From: Rhodococcus phenolicus
Lineage (GTDB): Bacteria > Actinomycetota > Actinomycetes > Mycobacteriales > Mycobacteriaceae
Direction of reading: 5' to 3'
DNA: 41,409 bases
Assembly: GCF_001646785.1 (NCBI RefSeq)
Contig: NZ_LRRH01000079.1
Coordinates: forward strand, 1 to 41,409
In this document: positions 7,346 through 26,078 of the stretch, piece after piece
Position numbering within the stretch: the first letter of the stretch is position 1
Layout: each line of letters begins with the position of its first letter
Translations under genes and position numbers: made by a program
The notes under the pieces: generated by a model
The model's input: only the letters and a program-made list of their open reading frames with translations
Database searches by the model: none
What the model was told of the DNA's origin: nothing

Positions 7346-8136
7346 CGCTGCCGTACTATGCGTCCGCCGAGCAGATCATGCGGGACCGCTCGGAGCTGGC
7401 CCGCAAGGGCATCGGCCGCGGGCGCAGCGTCATCGCCCTGATCTACGCGGACGGGGTGGTGTTCGTCGCGGAGAACCCGTCGAAGGCGCTGCACAAGATC
7501 AGCGAACTGTACGACCGGGTGGGCTTCGCCGCGGTCGGTAAGTACAACGAGTTCGAGAGCCTGCGCCGCTCCGGGATCATGCACGCCGACATGCGCGGCT
7601 ACGCCTACGACCGGCGGGACGTGACGGGCCGGTCGCTGGCGAACGCGTTCGCCTCGACCCTCGGGTCGATCTTCACCGATCAGCCCAAGCCGTACGAGGT
7701 GGAGATCTGCGTCGCCGAGGTGGGACGCGCCGACACCGAGGATGCGCCGCAGCTGTATCGGATCACCTACGACGGTTCGATCGTCGACGAACCGCAGTTC
7801 GTGGTGATGGGTGGCACCACCGAACCGATCGCGACCGCGTTGCGTGAGGCATATCGGCCCGGCCTCGAACTGGGGGCCGCGGTGGCGGTGGCGGTGACCG
7901 CGTTGCAGCGCGGCACCGGGTCGGATGCGGCGCCGCGCACGCTGGGGATCGGCGAACTCGAGGTCGCGGTGCTCGAGAAGCCGCGGCCGCGCCGGGCGTT
8001 CCGGCGGATCACCGGTGCCGCGCTCGAGTCGCTGTTGCCGGCGACCGGGTCCGGCGAGACGGTCGCCGAGGATGCGGCGCCGTCGCCGGCGGAGCCGGAG
8101 GCCGACACCGGAACGACCGGTCAGGACGATTCCTGA
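7342..8136 (+). CDS. prcA: 20S proteasome alpha subunit PrcA
   Basis: Non-catalytic outer-ring subunit that gates the chamber and receives the Mpa C-terminal tail. The 264-residue protein begins [18 protein letters not shown], containing the N-terminal gate segment. It continues with the alpha-type helix and [20 protein letters not shown]. It lacks the catalytic Thr, as expected. The C-terminal 30 residues are a Pro/Glu/Thr-rich disordered tail. ATGA overlap with prcB couples the two, giving balanced subunit amounts. Its last 16 bases overlap the 3' end of the convergent PAP2/DAGK gene, so there is no room for an ordinary terminator between them. Confidence 0.96.
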
Positions 8137-20501: not shown

Positions 20502-20897
20502 TCAGTCCAGGACCGATCCCATCACCCGGTCCACGGTGATCTCGACGACCACCCGCGTCGGATTCACCCTTGGGGGCCGATAGCGCCGCGTGTAACGGGC
20601 GACCCCTTCGGCGACCGCGGCGGCGTCGGTGCGTACCCGCGCCGAACCTTCGAGGGTGACCCAGCGGCCACCGTCGACCTGGGAGACCGCGGCGTAGCCG
20701 CCGCGGTCGGCGTTGAGTGCCTTCTGCGATCGGGCGTTGGTGATCACCCGCACCAGCCGCGTCTGCGGGTCCCAGGTGAACCCGACCGCGACGACGTGCG
20801 GGGTGCCGTCCTTGCGCAGCGTCGTGAGCGTGCCGAGGTGATACTCGGACAGGAACTGCAGTGCGCGCTCACCGAGCGCGTCCGGGGTGCGGGCCAT
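20502..20897 (-). CDS. PPOX-class F420-dependent oxidoreductase
   Basis: A 131-residue split-barrel flavin/deazaflavin-binding protein. Family features are LGTLTTLRKDGTPHVVAVGF (first strands), VITNARSQKALNADRGGY and QVDGGRWVTLEGSARV, ending with a strand built on RVVVEITVDRV. Members of this group bind coenzyme F420 and reduce low-molecular-weight substrates; the substrate here is unknown. ATG 20897 lies 7 nt after TAGGCT, so translation is probably leaderless. That -10 box overlaps the stop codon of the STM4011-type gene upstream on the same strand, so this gene may also be read through from the operon. Confidence 0.85.
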   Translation of the reverse strand: MARTPDALGERALQFLSEYHLGTLTTLRKDGTPHVVAVGFTWDPQTRLVRVITNARSQKALNADRGGYAAVSQVDGGRWVTLEGSARVRTDAAAVAEGVARYTRRYRPPRVNPTRVVVEITVDRVMGSVLD

Positions 20898-20904
20898 GCC
20901 CGCG

Positions 20905-20910
20905 AGCCTA
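20905..20910 (-). promoter_or_regulatory. -10 box of the PPOX gene inside the end of the STM401x operon
   Basis: TAGGCT (minus strand) lies 7 nt before ATG 20897, and its first three bases are the TAG stop codon of the upstream radical SAM gene. The promoter and the operon's last codon are thus the same bases. Confidence 0.5.
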
Positions 20911-21801
20911 GAACGCCCGGCGCGACGAGGTGACCGGGGTCAGCGGCAGCAGCGCCGGGATCCGTTCGACGACACCCCCGGCGAACACCTCGTACAGCGG
21001 CAGTTCCGGCAGGTGCACGTATCCGATGTGGCAGTCGCACATCGTGTTCGGGCAGGGGCGGGGCCGCAGCGCCGGGAGGTAGCTGCCGTCGTACAGGTTG
21101 CCGAGCGGCTCGTCCACGAAATGACAGCGCCGGACCCGTCCGTCGCCGTCGACGCTGATCACGCTCTCGCCGGTGCGGCACGGCCGGCCGAGTGTGGGAT
21201 GCGGACGCACCGAATACCCGAACAGCGGATCCAGCGCGGTCCACGCGGCTTCCTCCGCCGCCTCGTAGGTCCGCCCCTCCTCGGCGTTGACCCACAGATA
21301 GGTCGACTCGGGCAGCGCCGCGCGCAGAGCCCGGGCCTCGTCGAGCCGGTCGGCGAGCCCGACGATGCCCACCGAGTGCCGGATGCCGAGCCCGTCGAGT
21401 TCGGAGCACCGTTGCACGAACCGTGCGCGGGTGACCTCGCCGGGATGGTAGGTGCACCACAGCGCCACGCGCTCCCGGGCGGTATCGGCGAGCCAGCCGG
21501 TGCGGCACGACAGGTTCGTCTGGACCGCGACGGTGTCGATATGGGACAGGTGCGACAACGCGACCAGCGCGTCGCGGTACCAGGAACGGGTCAACGCCTC
21601 GCCCCACGGGGTGAACAGCACCGACAGCTTCGCGTGCCCGTCGGGATTGCCGGTGGCCCACGCCACGAACCGGTCCAGCGCCGCCCGGTCGGCACGTAGC
21701 GTCCCGGGGCTGTCGCGGCGCTTGGCGAACGGGCAGTACGGGCAGTCGTAGTTGCAGCTGGCGAGCGGCCCCCGGTACAGCACGGTCAGGTGCTCGCTCA
21801 C
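20908..21801 (-). CDS. STM4011 family radical SAM protein
   Basis: A 297-residue radical SAM enzyme. The canonical CxxxCxxC motif is CNYDCPYC (Cys-16, -20, -23), which binds the SAM-cleaving 4Fe-4S cluster. The C-terminal third has a second Cys set (Cys-208, -226, -250, -255, -257) around GESVISVDGDGRVRRC and CPNTMCDC, resembling the SPASM/Twitch auxiliary-cluster region of peptide-modifying enzymes. GTG 21801 overlaps the stop of the STM4012-type gene (GTGA). It is the last of the five-gene set, whose members correspond to the family names taken from Salmonella loci STM4011-STM4015. Substrate unknown; action on a peptide or protein is an inference from the auxiliary-cluster region. Confidence 0.87.
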   Translation of the reverse strand: MSEHLTVLYRGPLASCNYDCPYCPFAKRRDSPGTLRADRAALDRFVAWATGNPDGHAKLSVLFTPWGEALTRSWYRDALVALSHLSHIDTVAVQTNLSCRTGWLADTARERVALWCTYHPGEVTRARFVQRCSELDGLGIRHSVGIVGLADRLDEARALRAALPESTYLWVNAEEGRTYEAAEEAAWTALDPLFGYSVRPHPTLGRPCRTGESVISVDGDGRVRRCHFVDEPLGNLYDGSYLPALRPRPCPNTMCDCHIGYVHLPELPLYEVFAGGVVERIPALLPLTPVTSSRRAF

Positions 21802-23150
21802 CGCAGGACCGCCGCGGTCATCGAGGCGCGGACCGACTCGGACACCAGCCACGGGCCGATCAGATCGGAGCGGGCCAGGCCCGCGTCGGTCAGGCGCAGC
21901 CCGGCCCCGGCGGCGTGTGCCCAGCCGCGGTCGGTCAGCGTGTCGAGTCCGGGGATGTCCCGGTGCAGGTCGCCGCCGAACCGGGCGGTGTAGGCGGCGA
22001 GGTCGACGCCGTCGGCACGCAGCAACGTCTTGATCAGCCAGCGCCGCCGCTGCTCGTGTTCGTCGAGCGCGGTCCCGACGGTGGCGCGGCCGAAATCGTC
22101 GGTGGCGGTGTACTCGTCGAGGATCGCCCGCACCGCGGGCACTCCCACCGCGTAGTCGAACGAATAGTGCAGGTCGGTGGTGTAGGAGCGGGCACCGCAG
22201 CCGAGCCCGACCATGCCGTCGTCCTGGCAGCAGTAGTCGGTGTCGACGTCGGTGACGTCGCCGCGGCGGAACTGACGCATCGAGTGCTGCCGATAACCGG
22301 CGGCGGTGAGCGCCTCGACGCCCTGCCGGTACAACGCGAGACGCTGTGCGTCCCACCCGGTGTCGCGGTCGGTTCCGGCGCGGCGTCCGAGTCCGGTCAG
22401 CGGCCGCACGTACAGCGGATACAGGTAGATCTCCTCGGGGCATCTTGCGAGCGCGGTGTCGAGGGAGTACTGCCAGGTCTCGGGGGTCTGGCCGTCGATG
22501 CCGTAGATCAGGTCGAGGTTGACGATGCCGAACCCGGCGGCCTGCAGCCGGTCCAGCGCGGCGTCGACCGCGGCGCGTTTCTGCGGGCGCCCGGCCGCGT
22601 GGGCTTCGTGATCGAGGAAGCTCTGCACCCCGATGCTGACGCGGTGCACCCCGCGGTCGGCGAGCACCGCGACCCGGTCCGCGGTCGCGGTCGCGGGGGA
22701 CGTCTCGACGCCGCTGGGGATGCGGGGCAGTTCCGGTGCGAACTCGGTGAGGATGTCGAACAGCGCGTCGAGTTCGCGGGCCTCGAGGTAGGTGGGGGTG
22801 CCGCCGCCGATCGCGGCCGCGGCGAAACGTGCCGTGTCCGGTCCGGCGGCGTCGAGTTCGGTGCGGACCTGCCGGGCCTGCCGGCGCAGCGCGGCAAGGT
22901 AGGCGCCGACGCGTTCCTCGGGCGGGTTGGCGGTGGTGAACAGATTGCAGAACCCGCAGCGCATCTCGCAGAACGGGATGTGCGCGTACAGGAACAGCGA
23001 CGACCGGTCCTGTCCGGCCCACACCTGCCGCAGCGGCGGCGCCGGCCGCAGCGGCCGGTACGCGGATTTGTGCGGGTAGGCGTACAGGTAACCCTGGTAG
23101 GGGGAACCGTCGAGATCGACCGCGGTGTCGGTGCCGTCGAGCCGGGTCAT
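21798..23150 (-). CDS. STM4012 family radical SAM protein (HemN-like)
   Basis: A 450-residue enzyme of the HemN/HemW-like branch of radical SAM proteins. FLYAHIPFCEMRCGFCNLF carries the cluster cysteines Cys-61, -65 and -68. GGGTPT at 115-120 is the SAM-binding glycine motif, and GVETSPATATADRV and GVQSFLDHEAHAAGR match later HemN motifs. YGIDGQTPETWQYSLD and YPLYVRPLTGLG also follow the HemW pattern, and a C-terminal winged-helix-like domain ends the chain. It is unlikely to be the housekeeping coproporphyrinogen enzyme because it lies in the STM401x operon with a second radical SAM gene. ATG 23150 overlaps the preceding stop (ATGA). Reaction unknown. Confidence 0.87.
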   Translation of the reverse strand: MTRLDGTDTAVDLDGSPYQGYLYAYPHKSAYRPLRPAPPLRQVWAGQDRSSLFLYAHIPFCEMRCGFCNLFTTANPPEERVGAYLAALRRQARQVRTELDAAGPDTARFAAAAIGGGTPTYLEARELDALFDILTEFAPELPRIPSGVETSPATATADRVAVLADRGVHRVSIGVQSFLDHEAHAAGRPQKRAAVDAALDRLQAAGFGIVNLDLIYGIDGQTPETWQYSLDTALARCPEEIYLYPLYVRPLTGLGRRAGTDRDTGWDAQRLALYRQGVEALTAAGYRQHSMRQFRRGDVTDVDTDYCCQDDGMVGLGCGARSYTTDLHYSFDYAVGVPAVRAILDEYTATDDFGRATVGTALDEHEQRRRWLIKTLLRADGVDLAAYTARFGGDLHRDIPGLDTLTDRGWAHAAGAGLRLTDAGLARSDLIGPWLVSESVRASMTAAVLR

Positions 23151-23998
23151 CGGACCCCCCCGACGGGCAGCACGAACTGGGCGTACGGCACGGTCCACAC
23201 GGCTTCGTGGGCGAGCCGGTGCCCGGACCAGCCGTCGTCGCCGTAGGCGGTGCCGTGATCCGAGCACACGATCGTGTACACCGGCCGCGGTCCGGTCCTG
23301 ACCAGGTCCACCAGTCGAGGAACCCGCGCGTCGACGTACCGCAGGGCCGCGGCGTGACTGTCCGGTCCGTCCGGGGGCCGCGTGCCGGGGGTGGAGTCGA
23401 TCCCGTCGAGATAGAAGTGGTTCGGCTGGTGCAGCGCCGCGACGTTCACGAAAACGAAGCGCGGTCGCGGATCGGTGCTCGCCAGGGTCGTGGCGAGCAC
23501 GTCGAGCTGGGCGTCGAAACTCGCCGGGCTGGTCACCCCGGTGTCGGTCGACCAGTGGCTCTCCTCGAACAACGAGGGCAGCACGCGGCCCAGTTCGGTG
23601 GTTCCGGAGAAGAATCCGACGCCGCCGATGCAGACGGTGCGATACCCCTCGGCGGCGAGCGCCTCGACCACGGTGGCCTGCGGGAACGTCCAGGTGTGCG
23701 GTCCGGTGGATTCGCTGCCGGGGAACGCGGCCGCGTACAGCCGCGGATGCGGGCCGGGCGCGGCGGGCGTCGGCAGGAACCCGGCGAAGAACGCCTGGTG
23801 GGCGGGGAAGGTGAAGGTGGCCGGGGTGTGCCGGCGTTCCCACCCGCCGGGTAGCATCGCCGCCAGGTTCGGGGTGCGGCCGGCCGCGAGTTCTGCGGCG
23901 GCGATGTCGAAGCGCAGCGTGTCCAGCGTGACGAACAGGATGTCGTGGTTGCCGACGATCTCCGGGAAGGGCGGGGCAGGCAGGGGCGTCGGGATCAC
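23147..23998 (-). CDS. STM4013/SEN3800 family hydrolase (alkaline-phosphatase fold)
   Basis: A 283-residue protein of the alkaline phosphatase/sulfatase superfamily. The first metal-binding strand is ILFVTLDTLRFD (Asp-26, Thr-27). HTPATFTFPAHQAFFAGF (about 57-74) occupies the nucleophile position, with Thr in place of the sulfatase Cys/Ser. The second metal site is SDHGTAYGDDGWSGH (246-260). It is shorter than true sulfatases and has no signal peptide, so it should be cytoplasmic. That is expected if it acts on the same intracellular substrate as the neighbouring ATP-grasp and radical SAM enzymes. GTG 23998 overlaps the preceding stop. Whether it removes phosphate, sulphate or another group cannot be told. 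Confidence 0.85.
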   Translation of the reverse strand: MIPTPLPAPPFPEIVGNHDILFVTLDTLRFDIAAAELAAGRTPNLAAMLPGGWERRHTPATFTFPAHQAFFAGFLPTPAAPGPHPRLYAAAFPGSESTGPHTWTFPQATVVEALAAEGYRTVCIGGVGFFSGTTELGRVLPSLFEESHWSTDTGVTSPASFDAQLDVLATTLASTDPRPRFVFVNVAALHQPNHFYLDGIDSTPGTRPPDGPDSHAAALRYVDARVPRLVDLVRTGPRPVYTIVCSDHGTAYGDDGWSGHRLAHEAVWTVPYAQFVLPVGGVR

Positions 23999-25143
23999 AG
24001 CAGCATTCTTTCGGCGAGGGCGGCGACTTGCGTGTCGTAGGGATCGTGGTCGGGGCGGTGCAGGCCGGGCAGGTTCGGTAGCAGGTCTCCGAACGCGTTG
24101 ACCTCGGCCACCGCGACGGGAATCGGGCGGGTGGCGGTGGCGCGGGCCCCGACAAGCACGTCCACCCCGACCGTGAGGGTGCGGGGGAAACAGGCGGCGG
24201 CGGCCTCGGCGACGTCGAGCACGCGCCGCCACCCGTCGTCGCCGAGCACGCTGCGCAGCGTGGTCAGGTCGCCGCGCGCATTGCCCAGGTGCAGGTTGGT
24301 GATCGATCCGGTGGCGGCGCGGACCACCGCGTGACCGGCAGTGCCGCCGACGGTGAGCACCCGCACGTCGACGGCCCGGCGCTCGTATACGAGCTTGGGG
24401 AACCAGCGTTCGACGTGCAGGTGCCGGTCGGCGAGCGCGTCGATCAGCGGCGCCACCTCCGTTTCGCCGCGGAACACCCCGGGCCGCAGCGTGTTGAACG
24501 GCTGCCCGCCGGCGAGTTCGACAGGGCCGCGCGCGATCACGTCGAGGTGGCGGCCGCGCCGGCGCAGCTGCACCGCCAGCACGCCGGACGCGGACGAGCC
24601 GTGGGCGGGTTTGACGAAGACCCGATGCCAGCCTCGGGAGGCGAGCCGGTCGCGGAGCTCGGCCCACCCGGAGACAGGGGGCGTGTCCGGGGCATCGAGC
24701 GCGGGGGGCACCGGCACCCGGGCGGCGGTGAGCCGGGCGTGGCAGGCAGGCTTGTCGAACAGCACCGCGATCTCGTCCGGGTCGGTGGTGGAGGGTATCC
24801 GCGCGGCGCGGGCGGCGGATGCCAGTGCCGCTGTCGCCGTGGTGAACCCGCGATACCAGTCCGGGCCGGCGGTGACGGCACCGTGCAGCGCGACACGATC
24901 CGCGCCGCGCAGCAACCGGTCGACCTGCGGGTCGTCGCCGGGGGAGTCGATGCGCATCACGGTCGGCGGCCTGTCGTCGAGCGCAGCCGTCAGATGCATC
25001 CCGGCGCGGTCGGGTCCGTCGGCGAGCACGGTCCGCCACGGCACTACCCGTGGCGCAGCGTGTCCGGCGCGGGCGAGTGCCGCGGTGAGCAGGGCGGTGC
25101 GCCGGGTGCCGGGATTACCGATCAGCAGCAGGGCGCCGCTCAC
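23995..25143 (-). CDS. STM4014 family ATP-grasp-like protein
   Basis: A 382-residue protein with an ATP-grasp-like core. FVKPAHGSSASG (176-187, Lys-178) is the ATP-binding Lys/loop, and RRAVDVRVLTVGGTAGHAV (255-273) supplies strands of the grasp domain. VAEVNAFGDLLPNL (345-358) carries the late E-x-N metal/ATP residues seen in RimK-like ligases. Such enzymes join a carboxylate to an amine through an acyl phosphate, so a peptide or amide ligation on a partner protein is a reasonable inference. The N-terminus, LLLIGNPGTRRTALLTAALA, looks like a nucleotide-loop fold but has no full Walker A. GTG 25143 overlaps the STM4015 stop. Confidence 0.83.
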   Translation of the reverse strand: MSGALLLIGNPGTRRTALLTAALARAGHAAPRVVPWRTVLADGPDRAGMHLTAALDDRPPTVMRIDSPGDDPQVDRLLRGADRVALHGAVTAGPDWYRGFTTATAALASAARAARIPSTTDPDEIAVLFDKPACHARLTAARVPVPPALDAPDTPPVSGWAELRDRLASRGWHRVFVKPAHGSSASGVLAVQLRRRGRHLDVIARGPVELAGGQPFNTLRPGVFRGETEVAPLIDALADRHLHVERWFPKLVYERRAVDVRVLTVGGTAGHAVVRAATGSITNLHLGNARGDLTTLRSVLGDDGWRRVLDVAEAAAACFPRTLTVGVDVLVGARATATRPIPVAVAEVNAFGDLLPNLPGLHRPDHDPYDTQVAALAERMLL

Positions 25144-26078
25144 TCCGAGACGGCGGTGTAGCGCCAGCCGTCGTCGCTGTCGGCTTCCTGCCGGTCCTCG
25201 GCGGAGATCGTGATGCCCGGGTGGGCGGCGCGCAGCCGGTCGAGGGCCGCGTCGGAGGCGTAGTGGTGGTCGAGGATCAGGGTGGTCACCGCGCCGAGGT
25301 CGCCGTCGCCGAGCGCGTCGACCCCGATGTCCGACAGTGTGCCCAGCGACAGATCCAGATCGGTGATGCGCTTCAGGACCGGGGCGCCGGCGAGCGCGAG
25401 CGCGATCTCGTCGGCGATCTCCGCGTTGCGCAGCCCCAGCGACGTCACGTTCGGGAACAGGTCGCCGGCGAGCAACGCAGCGAGCGGTTCGACGGTCTCG
25501 ACGCCGCCGTAGTTCTCGGTGCCGAGCCACAGTTCGAGGCGTTCGAGGCGCGGCAGGTCGGCGGCGAGCAGGGCGGTCAGATAGGAGGGCAGCAGCCCAC
25601 CCGATTCGACGGTCAGCGACCGCAGCCGCGGCAGCGACGGCGGGGTGAGATCGACGTCGTCGCCGGTCATCGGGGTGCAGCCGCCCCGCAACTGGAGGGT
25701 CTCGAGGTTCGGTGCCGCCGCGAGCACCGCCCCGAGATCGCCCCAGTCGATCCAGGAGATCTCGGATTCGTCGAAGGTCATGTCGCCGACGAACAGCGCG
25801 GTCAGCGCCGGCAGCGCGGTGAGCAGCGGCGCCACCTGGCCGGCGGGCAGCGGGTCGCTCGCCTCGCTCCACTGCCCGAGCAGCAGGGCGGTCACCCGCC
25901 CGGCCCAGGGCGTCTCGGTCAGCGCGGTCAGGTCCGCCACGAACCGGTCGGTGCCGCCGTCCCAGTCGGTGGCGATCTTCCAGGCGACCGACGCCGGATC
26001 GACCGGTGTGTCGGTGTCGGTCGTGAACTGCTGGACGGGCAGGCCCGCGAAACGGGTGGTCGCTGTGGAGATGGTCAC
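25140..26078 (-). CDS. STM4015 family leucine-rich-repeat protein
   Basis: First gene of the five-gene operon, 312 residues. Residues about 85-290 form irregular leucine-rich repeats (NLETLQLRGG, RLRSLTVESG, RLERLELWLG, NVTSLGLRNAEIADEIALAL, ITDLDLSLGTLSDIGVDAL, VTTLILDHHY), a binding scaffold rather than an enzyme. Residues 1-60 are a non-repeat cap. After the last repeat comes a polar tail ending DSDDGWRYTAVSE. No Cys clusters, signal peptide or membrane helix are present. In this context it could be the substrate or the carrier recognised by the four enzymes encoded downstream. GTG 26078 is the start; a TAGGGT -10 lies about 45 bp upstream. Confidence 0.83.
   Translation of the reverse strand: MTISTATTRFAGLPVQQFTTDTDTPVDPASVAWKIATDWDGGTDRFVADLTALTETPWAGRVTALLLGQWSEASDPLPAGQVAPLLTALPALTALFVGDMTFDESEISWIDWGDLGAVLAAAPNLETLQLRGGCTPMTGDDVDLTPPSLPRLRSLTVESGGLLPSYLTALLAADLPRLERLELWLGTENYGGVETVEPLAALLAGDLFPNVTSLGLRNAEIADEIALALAGAPVLKRITDLDLSLGTLSDIGVDALGDGDLGAVTTLILDHHYASDAALDRLRAAHPGITISAEDRQEADSDDGWRYTAVSE

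Follow-up and report, generated by a model that had tools for sequence, protein, structure and literature searches.

What chemistry do five protein families carry out whose only names are Salmonella locus numbers, STM4011 to STM4015? The question is raised by a 41,409-nucleotide stretch of Rhodococcus phenolicus DNA (assembly GCF_001646785.1, contig NZ_LRRH01000079.1; hereafter the window), in which open reading frame (ORF) calls place one gene of each family on the minus strand at positions 20908-26078, in the order STM4015-STM4014-STM4013-STM4012-STM4011. A first-pass annotation had taken this for a complete operon for the multi-step modification of one protein, with the leucine-rich-repeat (LRR) protein STM4015 as substrate or scaffold, and had allowed that a published pathway might already explain the set. 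Here we report that STM4015 proteins almost invariably end in Glu, and that the ATP-grasp enzyme STM4014 is predicted to share its fold with ligases that act on a C-terminal Glu. These two observations are what is new here, and they suggest, with a probability of roughly 0.55, that STM4014 ligates a unit to the C-terminal Glu of STM4015. A search of literature listings, not of full texts, found no published pathway and no paper on the function of the set; among the papers listed, any of the STM4011-STM4015 tags is named in two, as a table entry in each.

The five-gene operon

The product of each gene was scored against the NCBIfam model of its family (coordinates in Table 1). Four proteins exceeded the cut-offs (394 versus 200 bits for STM4011, NF038073; 583 versus 380 for STM4012, NF006067; 374 versus 250 for STM4013, NF038075; 356 versus 175 for STM4014, NF038074), and STM4015 fell just under its own (NF038076, 257 versus 275 bits), with the whole model, 1-290, covered. 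Its nearest named relatives are from Rhodococcus, and it counts as a divergent relative sitting at the expected operon position. At all four junctions the start of one gene overlaps the stop of the preceding one by 4 bases, which points to a single transcript for all five genes; a promoter and terminator scan of the operon gave no signal above shuffled sequences. The operon is thus as complete as the first-pass annotation had claimed. None of the five NCBIfam models gives a function, and those of STM4013, STM4014 and STM4015 are typed hypoth_equivalog.

STM4015 ends in a fixed glutamate

Conservation of the STM4015 C-terminus was evaluated in several sets of sequences. The last residue was Glu in all of the 120 best relatives, and in 107 of the 109 copies called in a set of 86 sources, which comprised 80 loci found with an STM4011 profile (of 581 confirmed), five annotated plasmid records and the window. 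Of the two exceptions, the copy at locus L091 is interrupted by an internal stop and that at L096 changes frame; in both of them homology runs on to ...VSE-stop. A wider search listed 115 new proteins, 114 of which had the terminal Glu; the remaining one, from a contig of 1112 bases, is one residue too short. In a survey of the class, for which one sample of 246 genomes was used, all 17 STM4015 copies read (of 55 strong places) ended in Glu-stop, including six that stand apart from the operon. As a baseline, 27 of 997 other called ORFs ended in Glu.

Comparison of 29 paralogue pairs showed that the tail is conserved in a patterned way: identity was 100% at positions -1 and -7, 90% at -6 and 86% at -3, but 31-62% at -2, -4 and -5 and 3-21% at -8 to -14, against 53% for the body. 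Actinobacterial tails mostly read R-Y-x-A-V-x-E, while Salmonella, Bacteroides and Paenibacillus proteins end in ...MYTE, ...MITE and ...SLTE, respectively, so that across phyla the terminal Glu is the only invariant tail residue.

STM4015 is also the member of the set that is present in several copies. Among the 31 class genomes that carry the families, 16 had at least two strong STM4015 matches, up to five, one copy being broken (Table 1), whereas STM4011 was single-copy in each of the 31. The picture at individual loci is similar. Of the 72 that carry all four enzymes, 43 have one called STM4015 gene, 27 have two and one has three, and in one the gene was missed; duplicated enzyme genes were not seen, save hemN itself in L162. 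Since STM4015 is often multi-copy and keeps a fixed Glu behind a variable spacer, and since the nearest folds to STM4014 are those of Glu-acceptor enzymes (see below), STM4015 may be a carrier or a substrate modified at its C-terminus. In the broader terms of the first-pass annotation, the terminal Glu, the multiple copies and the free-standing paralogues make it likely that the LRR protein is a substrate or scaffold.

STM4014 resembles ligases acting on a C-terminal Glu

For the predicted structure of STM4014 (mean predicted local distance difference test score, pLDDT, 90.8), the nearest solved fold was that of ArgX in its structure with LysW, and RimK and LysX ranked equal to it. Two STM4014 profiles also matched LysX in sequence (6e-5 and 1.8e-5). 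RimK acts on the C-terminal Glu of ribosomal protein S6. LysX is reported to act on the C-terminal Glu of LysW and to join its substrate there.

STM4013, STM4012 and STM4011

The alkaline-phosphatase-type fold that the first-pass annotation had assigned to STM4013 agrees with its match to PF00884 (8e-11). Residues D26, T63, D247, H248 and H264 are invariant in seven aligned members, and by eye the alignment puts Thr63, not Cys, at the presumed nucleophile position. Because these residues are kept and a sulfatase signature is absent by eye, STM4013 would be phosphoesterase-like. Among solved proteins, STM4012 was nearest in sequence to HemN (1olt, 1.5e-25) and to the radical S-adenosylmethionine (SAM) methyltransferase NocN (9p2u, 2.8e-19), and it scored 116 bits against the HemN coproporphyrinogen III oxidase model, below the cut-off of 325. 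The extra Cys residues noted earlier in the radical SAM enzyme STM4011 also held: CX3CX2C and Cys 208, 226, 250, 255 and 257 do not vary among six aligned members drawn from five phyla. Their likeness to a SPASM set is weak and under the cut-off (PF13186, E = 0.055).

The five families occur as a set

In the class sample STM4011 and STM4012 each exceeded the cut-off in 31 of the 246 genomes (STM4012 among matches listed at E <= 1e-60), STM4013 and STM4014 in 30, and STM4015 had a strong match in 31, namely 30 over the cut-off and the window. Comparison of the hit lists showed that these are the same 31 genomes; the only one lacking STM4013 and STM4014 is G361, a fragmented assembly of ~1310 contigs. 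In a sample of the phylum, STM4013 (over the cut-off) and STM4015 occurred in the same three of 149 genomes. All five genes stood in the same order in 71 of the 86 sources, and no other order was seen in the remaining 15, in which genes were missing through contig ends, loss (L163) or misses of the ORF caller (STM4011 in L082 and L083, for instance). The search of genomes that the first-pass annotation had called for thus shows the families as an ordered set.

Its converse, that the families mostly occur apart, was true in small part only, for offshoots of STM4013 and STM4012. STM4012-like proteins of ~265 bits, below the cut-off, were found in two genomes that lack the set and in G362, where the protein is a second copy; a second STM4013 was over the cut-off in G211 and scored 133 bits in G317. 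Many further matches below ~50 bits lay outside the set, as expected from such broad folds. STM4013-family hydrolases also stand outside the five-gene set at L167 (7738-9901) and L185 (447-3838), beside a NUDIX gene and an 80-amino-acid protein. L167 has in addition a lasso-B2-like gene, and L185 a MoaA-like radical SAM gene and a kinase-like P-loop gene (both by eye). These two loci are possibly a separate cluster for a nucleotide- or peptide-derived product.

Accessory and neighbouring genes

Two genes frequently accompany the operon. Of the 86 sources, 56 have a DUF6745-like gene and 55 a gene for a 108-amino-acid protein with the motifs T-G-H-A-H and H-E-E-H; their placement varies (upstream and divergent, downstream, or co-directional). 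In the class sample, in which up to 12 candidates per genome were scored, DUF6745 matches above 300 bits were confined to genomes with the operon: 16 of the 31 had them, against 0 of the 215 others, and each lay on the same contig as the operon, about 1.5 kb or less from the closest operon match. In the window neither gene is near the operon; a weak paralogue of DUF6745 lies on another contig of the R. phenolicus genome (G000:C161:98064-98633), near a 108-amino-acid-like fragment. The literature search found no paper naming DUF6745. In Salmonella a Cof-type haloacid dehalogenase (HAD) gene overlaps STM4011, and in Bacteroides a HAD domain is fused to it; the two are distantly alike, aligning only around the DxDGT motif (E = 0.01), and so far as this alignment goes the link is support at the level of fold. 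The earlier view of a self-contained unit therefore stands in that the five genes keep together, and needs amending in that DUF6745 with the 108-amino-acid protein, or a HAD phosphatase, join them in some lineages.

In the window, a gene for a PPOX-class F420-dependent oxidoreductase (20502-20897; TIGR03618, 96 versus a cut-off of 79 bits) lies on the same strand and starts 10 bases downstream of STM4011. It was considered as a sixth member and dropped, as it was not found beside the operon in L186-L188, from three other genomes of the genus. Across the 80 named loci and the window its matches, other than itself, were five weak ones and a single strong one, in L134, at a distance of ~7 kb from STM4011.

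Table 1. Coordinates of the operon genes and of related features (positions without a locus or genome prefix refer to the window)
Feature	Position	Strand	Remarks
STM4015-family leucine-rich-repeat protein	25140..26078	-	GTG start, 312 aa; proposed carrier/substrate
Codons of the STM4015 C-terminal heptapeptide, R-Y-T-A-V-S-E	25143..25163	-	terminal Glu is the proposed ligation site
STM4014-family ATP-grasp enzyme	23995..25143	-	GTG start, 382 aa; proposed ligase
STM4013/SEN3800-family hydrolase, alkaline phosphatase superfamily	23147..23998	-	GTG start, 283 aa; proposed phosphoesterase
STM4012-family HemN-like radical SAM enzyme	21798..23150	-	ATG start, 450 aa
STM4011-family radical SAM enzyme	20908..21801	-	GTG start, 297 aa; CX3CX2C and five conserved Cys
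DUF6745 and 108-aa pair, recurrent operon partner	L133 3685-5118	-	also at many Streptomyces loci
Broken STM4015 copy	G334:C1:313436-314200		
STM4012-like HemN relatives, ~265 bits	G362:C55:49548-50828; G270:C1:5835960-5837243; G128:C1:8765174-8766460		two of the three genomes without the operon

Distribution and horizontal transfer

Named records with the set belong to Actinomycetota, Pseudomonadota (Methylobacterium, Salmonella), Bacillota (Paenibacillus) and Deinococcota. A Bacteroides finegoldii record (L163) has intact STM4015, STM4014 and STM4011, between the last two of which only remnants of STM4013 and STM4012 are left (7600-7965). A contig from a viral collection (L181) carries all five genes in the same order, with 72-87% identity to the three intact B. 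finegoldii proteins. Within the genus sample STM4011 was found in four of 18 genomes. It matched 13 of 72,556 plasmid records; the Salmonella plasmid record that was opened has glnA, typA and hemN beside STM4011 and looks chromosomal, and an 11.9-Mb Nonomuraea plasmid record is presumably a chromosome. Searches with the Salmonella operon gave no match in 5,426 E. coli genomes (close relatives only), and of eight stretches in viral contigs that matched an STM4013 pattern none was a relative.

A tree of the four concatenated enzymes (17 taxa, one root and model; L082 and L083 left out) grouped the window with Plantactinospora and Hamadaea (support 69), outside a clade of R. triatomae, Prescottella, Nocardia and Streptomyces (support 99), and placed the alphaproteobacterium with Deinococcus (79), next to actinobacteria and away from Salmonella. 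This topology fits horizontal transfer. Because the set is patchily present (31 of 246 genomes in the class, four of 18 in the genus), has copies on plasmids and splits the Rhodococcus lineages in the tree, the unit appears to have moved between lineages, as had been proposed.

Discussion

From these data we infer a scheme in which the ligation site, the order of steps, the radical chemistry, the unit and the product are all conjectural. STM4015 would serve as the dedicated carrier or substrate. STM4014, an enzyme of the LysX/ArgX/RimK type, would activate its terminal Glu, either at the side chain as in LysW or at the alpha-carboxylate as in RimK, and attach a unit there through an amine of that unit. 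While tethered, the unit would be remodelled by the two radical SAM enzymes, STM4011 and STM4012; STM4013 would contribute a phosphate-ester step, as would a HAD phosphatase in some lineages. The product would then either stay on the protein as a modified C-terminus or be set free by an enzyme encoded elsewhere. The scheme narrows the multi-step modification of one protein, as first annotated, to a single residue of STM4015, its terminal Glu, and proposes STM4014 as the ligase. At somewhat under even odds, we tentatively take it to represent a new class of biosynthesis on LRR carrier proteins in at least five phyla, with loading of the LysX/RimK type, radical SAM enzymes and a phosphoesterase building an amino-acid-like metabolite or cofactor, and more than one such carrier working in parallel within a genome.

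Several observations weigh against ligation at the terminal Glu. The sequence match between STM4014 and LysX is weak, single stretches alone do not pass in the 1.8e-5 match, and a third STM4014 profile (A7) gave no match at all at 0.01; the fold is also common to DcsG, glutathione synthetase, the graspetide ligase PsnB and others. A kept last residue is not confined to STM4015, since STM4012 ends in Lys or Arg in 83 of 86 (the other three include Salmonella hemN itself), DUF6745 in Thr in 54 of 57 and the 108-amino-acid protein in Asp in 55 of 55, all counted in narrower sets than STM4015. In the AlphaFold2 model of STM4015 (mean pLDDT 95.4) the last 12 residues score 91-95, so the tail may be ordered and not a free arm, and none of the five operon genes was recognised as coding for a release peptidase. 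Because of these last two points there is room for a permanent modification, or for a terminal Glu that could be a mere recognition handle.

The strongest competing explanation, which we consider unlikely, is that the conserved tail serves only for docking and that the enzymes modify STM4015 elsewhere or another protein altogether. The predicted order of the tail would suit it, RiPP (ribosomally synthesized and post-translationally modified peptide) enzymes commonly bind short recognition motifs, and a candidate site is at hand in the E-x-S-W-I loop, where S-W-I is invariant and the preceding Glu nearly so in 71 aligned members. However, a docking handle need not end at the identical residue before the stop across paralogues and phyla, and both LysX and RimK, among the nearest folds to STM4014, act on a C-terminal Glu. 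It is still less probable that the four enzymes make a free small molecule for which STM4015 is the sensor or adaptor, although LRR proteins are usually binding proteins, Bacteroides-type relatives carry an N-terminal PF05406 domain (which we take to be WGR), and offshoots of STM4013 stand beside a NUDIX gene and, at L185, also beside genes for a kinase-like and a MoaA-like radical SAM protein; a sensor alone would leave it unexplained why one genome has several paralogues that all retain the final Glu. That STM4015 is a graspetide-like precursor, with STM4014 closing a ring between a Glu side chain and a tail Ser, Thr or Lys, is suggested by PsnB being among the top folds, but we rejected it as very improbable, since among 45 non-redundant tails none of these is the leading conserved residue at any of the last 12 positions (position -2, for instance, is G in 24, S in 10, T in 6, A in 4 and L in 1). 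An anaerobic sulfatase-maturing STM4011 with STM4013 as its formylglycine sulfatase, to which the weak SPASM-like Cys set and PF00884 might point, has next to no chance given that, by eye, the invariant Thr63 stands where sulfatases carry Cys or Ser and no C/S-x-P-x-R is seen there in any of the seven members. A defence system was also discarded: PADLOC had no match for seven of eight proteins, and for STM4012 one weak match (1.6e-5, 77 residues).

The proposed ligation at the terminal Glu of STM4015 has its closest parallels in the amino-group carrier protein system of lysine and arginine biosynthesis, LysW with LysX/ArgX, and in RimK. STM4014 is predicted to have the ATP-grasp ligase fold of LysX/ArgX, and in STM4015 as in LysW an acidic stretch precedes the fixed C-terminal Glu. 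Where the LysW pathway has kinase, reductase and aminotransferase steps, the five-gene set has two radical SAM enzymes and an alkaline-phosphatase-fold hydrolase, and no release enzyme was recognised in it. The partner of RimK is ribosomal protein S6, whereas here it is an LRR protein in a set with two radical SAM enzymes. The nearest solved fold to STM4015 is 2ra8, a Bacteroides fragilis member of its own family, named uncharacterised. LysW itself is described as a small Zn-binding protein ending in EDWGE; STM4015 has neither that ending nor a small Zn-binding Cys domain. A further parallel is offered by pearlins (3-thiaglutamate, 3-thiahomoleucine and ammosamide), where a unit is reported to be loaded onto the C-terminus of a carrier peptide and then rebuilt, by radical SAM chemistry in the 3-thiahomoleucine route (PMC9303977). 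There the carrier is a short peptide and loading is by a tRNA-dependent peptide aminoacyl-tRNA ligase (PEARL), in contrast to the LRR protein and the ATP-grasp enzyme proposed here; no NCBIfam or Pfam match to a PEARL was found among the five genes, the rest of the genome not having been searched. Further literature drawn on comprises PMC10433800, PMC3844500, PMC4632510 and PMC2784778.

The proposed ligation is a first concrete and testable chemical step for five families that carry only Salmonella locus numbers, in a gene set that ranges from Streptomyces to Salmonella and Bacteroides. If it is true, carrier-protein biosynthesis would extend to LRR carriers and to tailoring by radical SAM enzymes, and the set should lead to a metabolite or cofactor not yet known.

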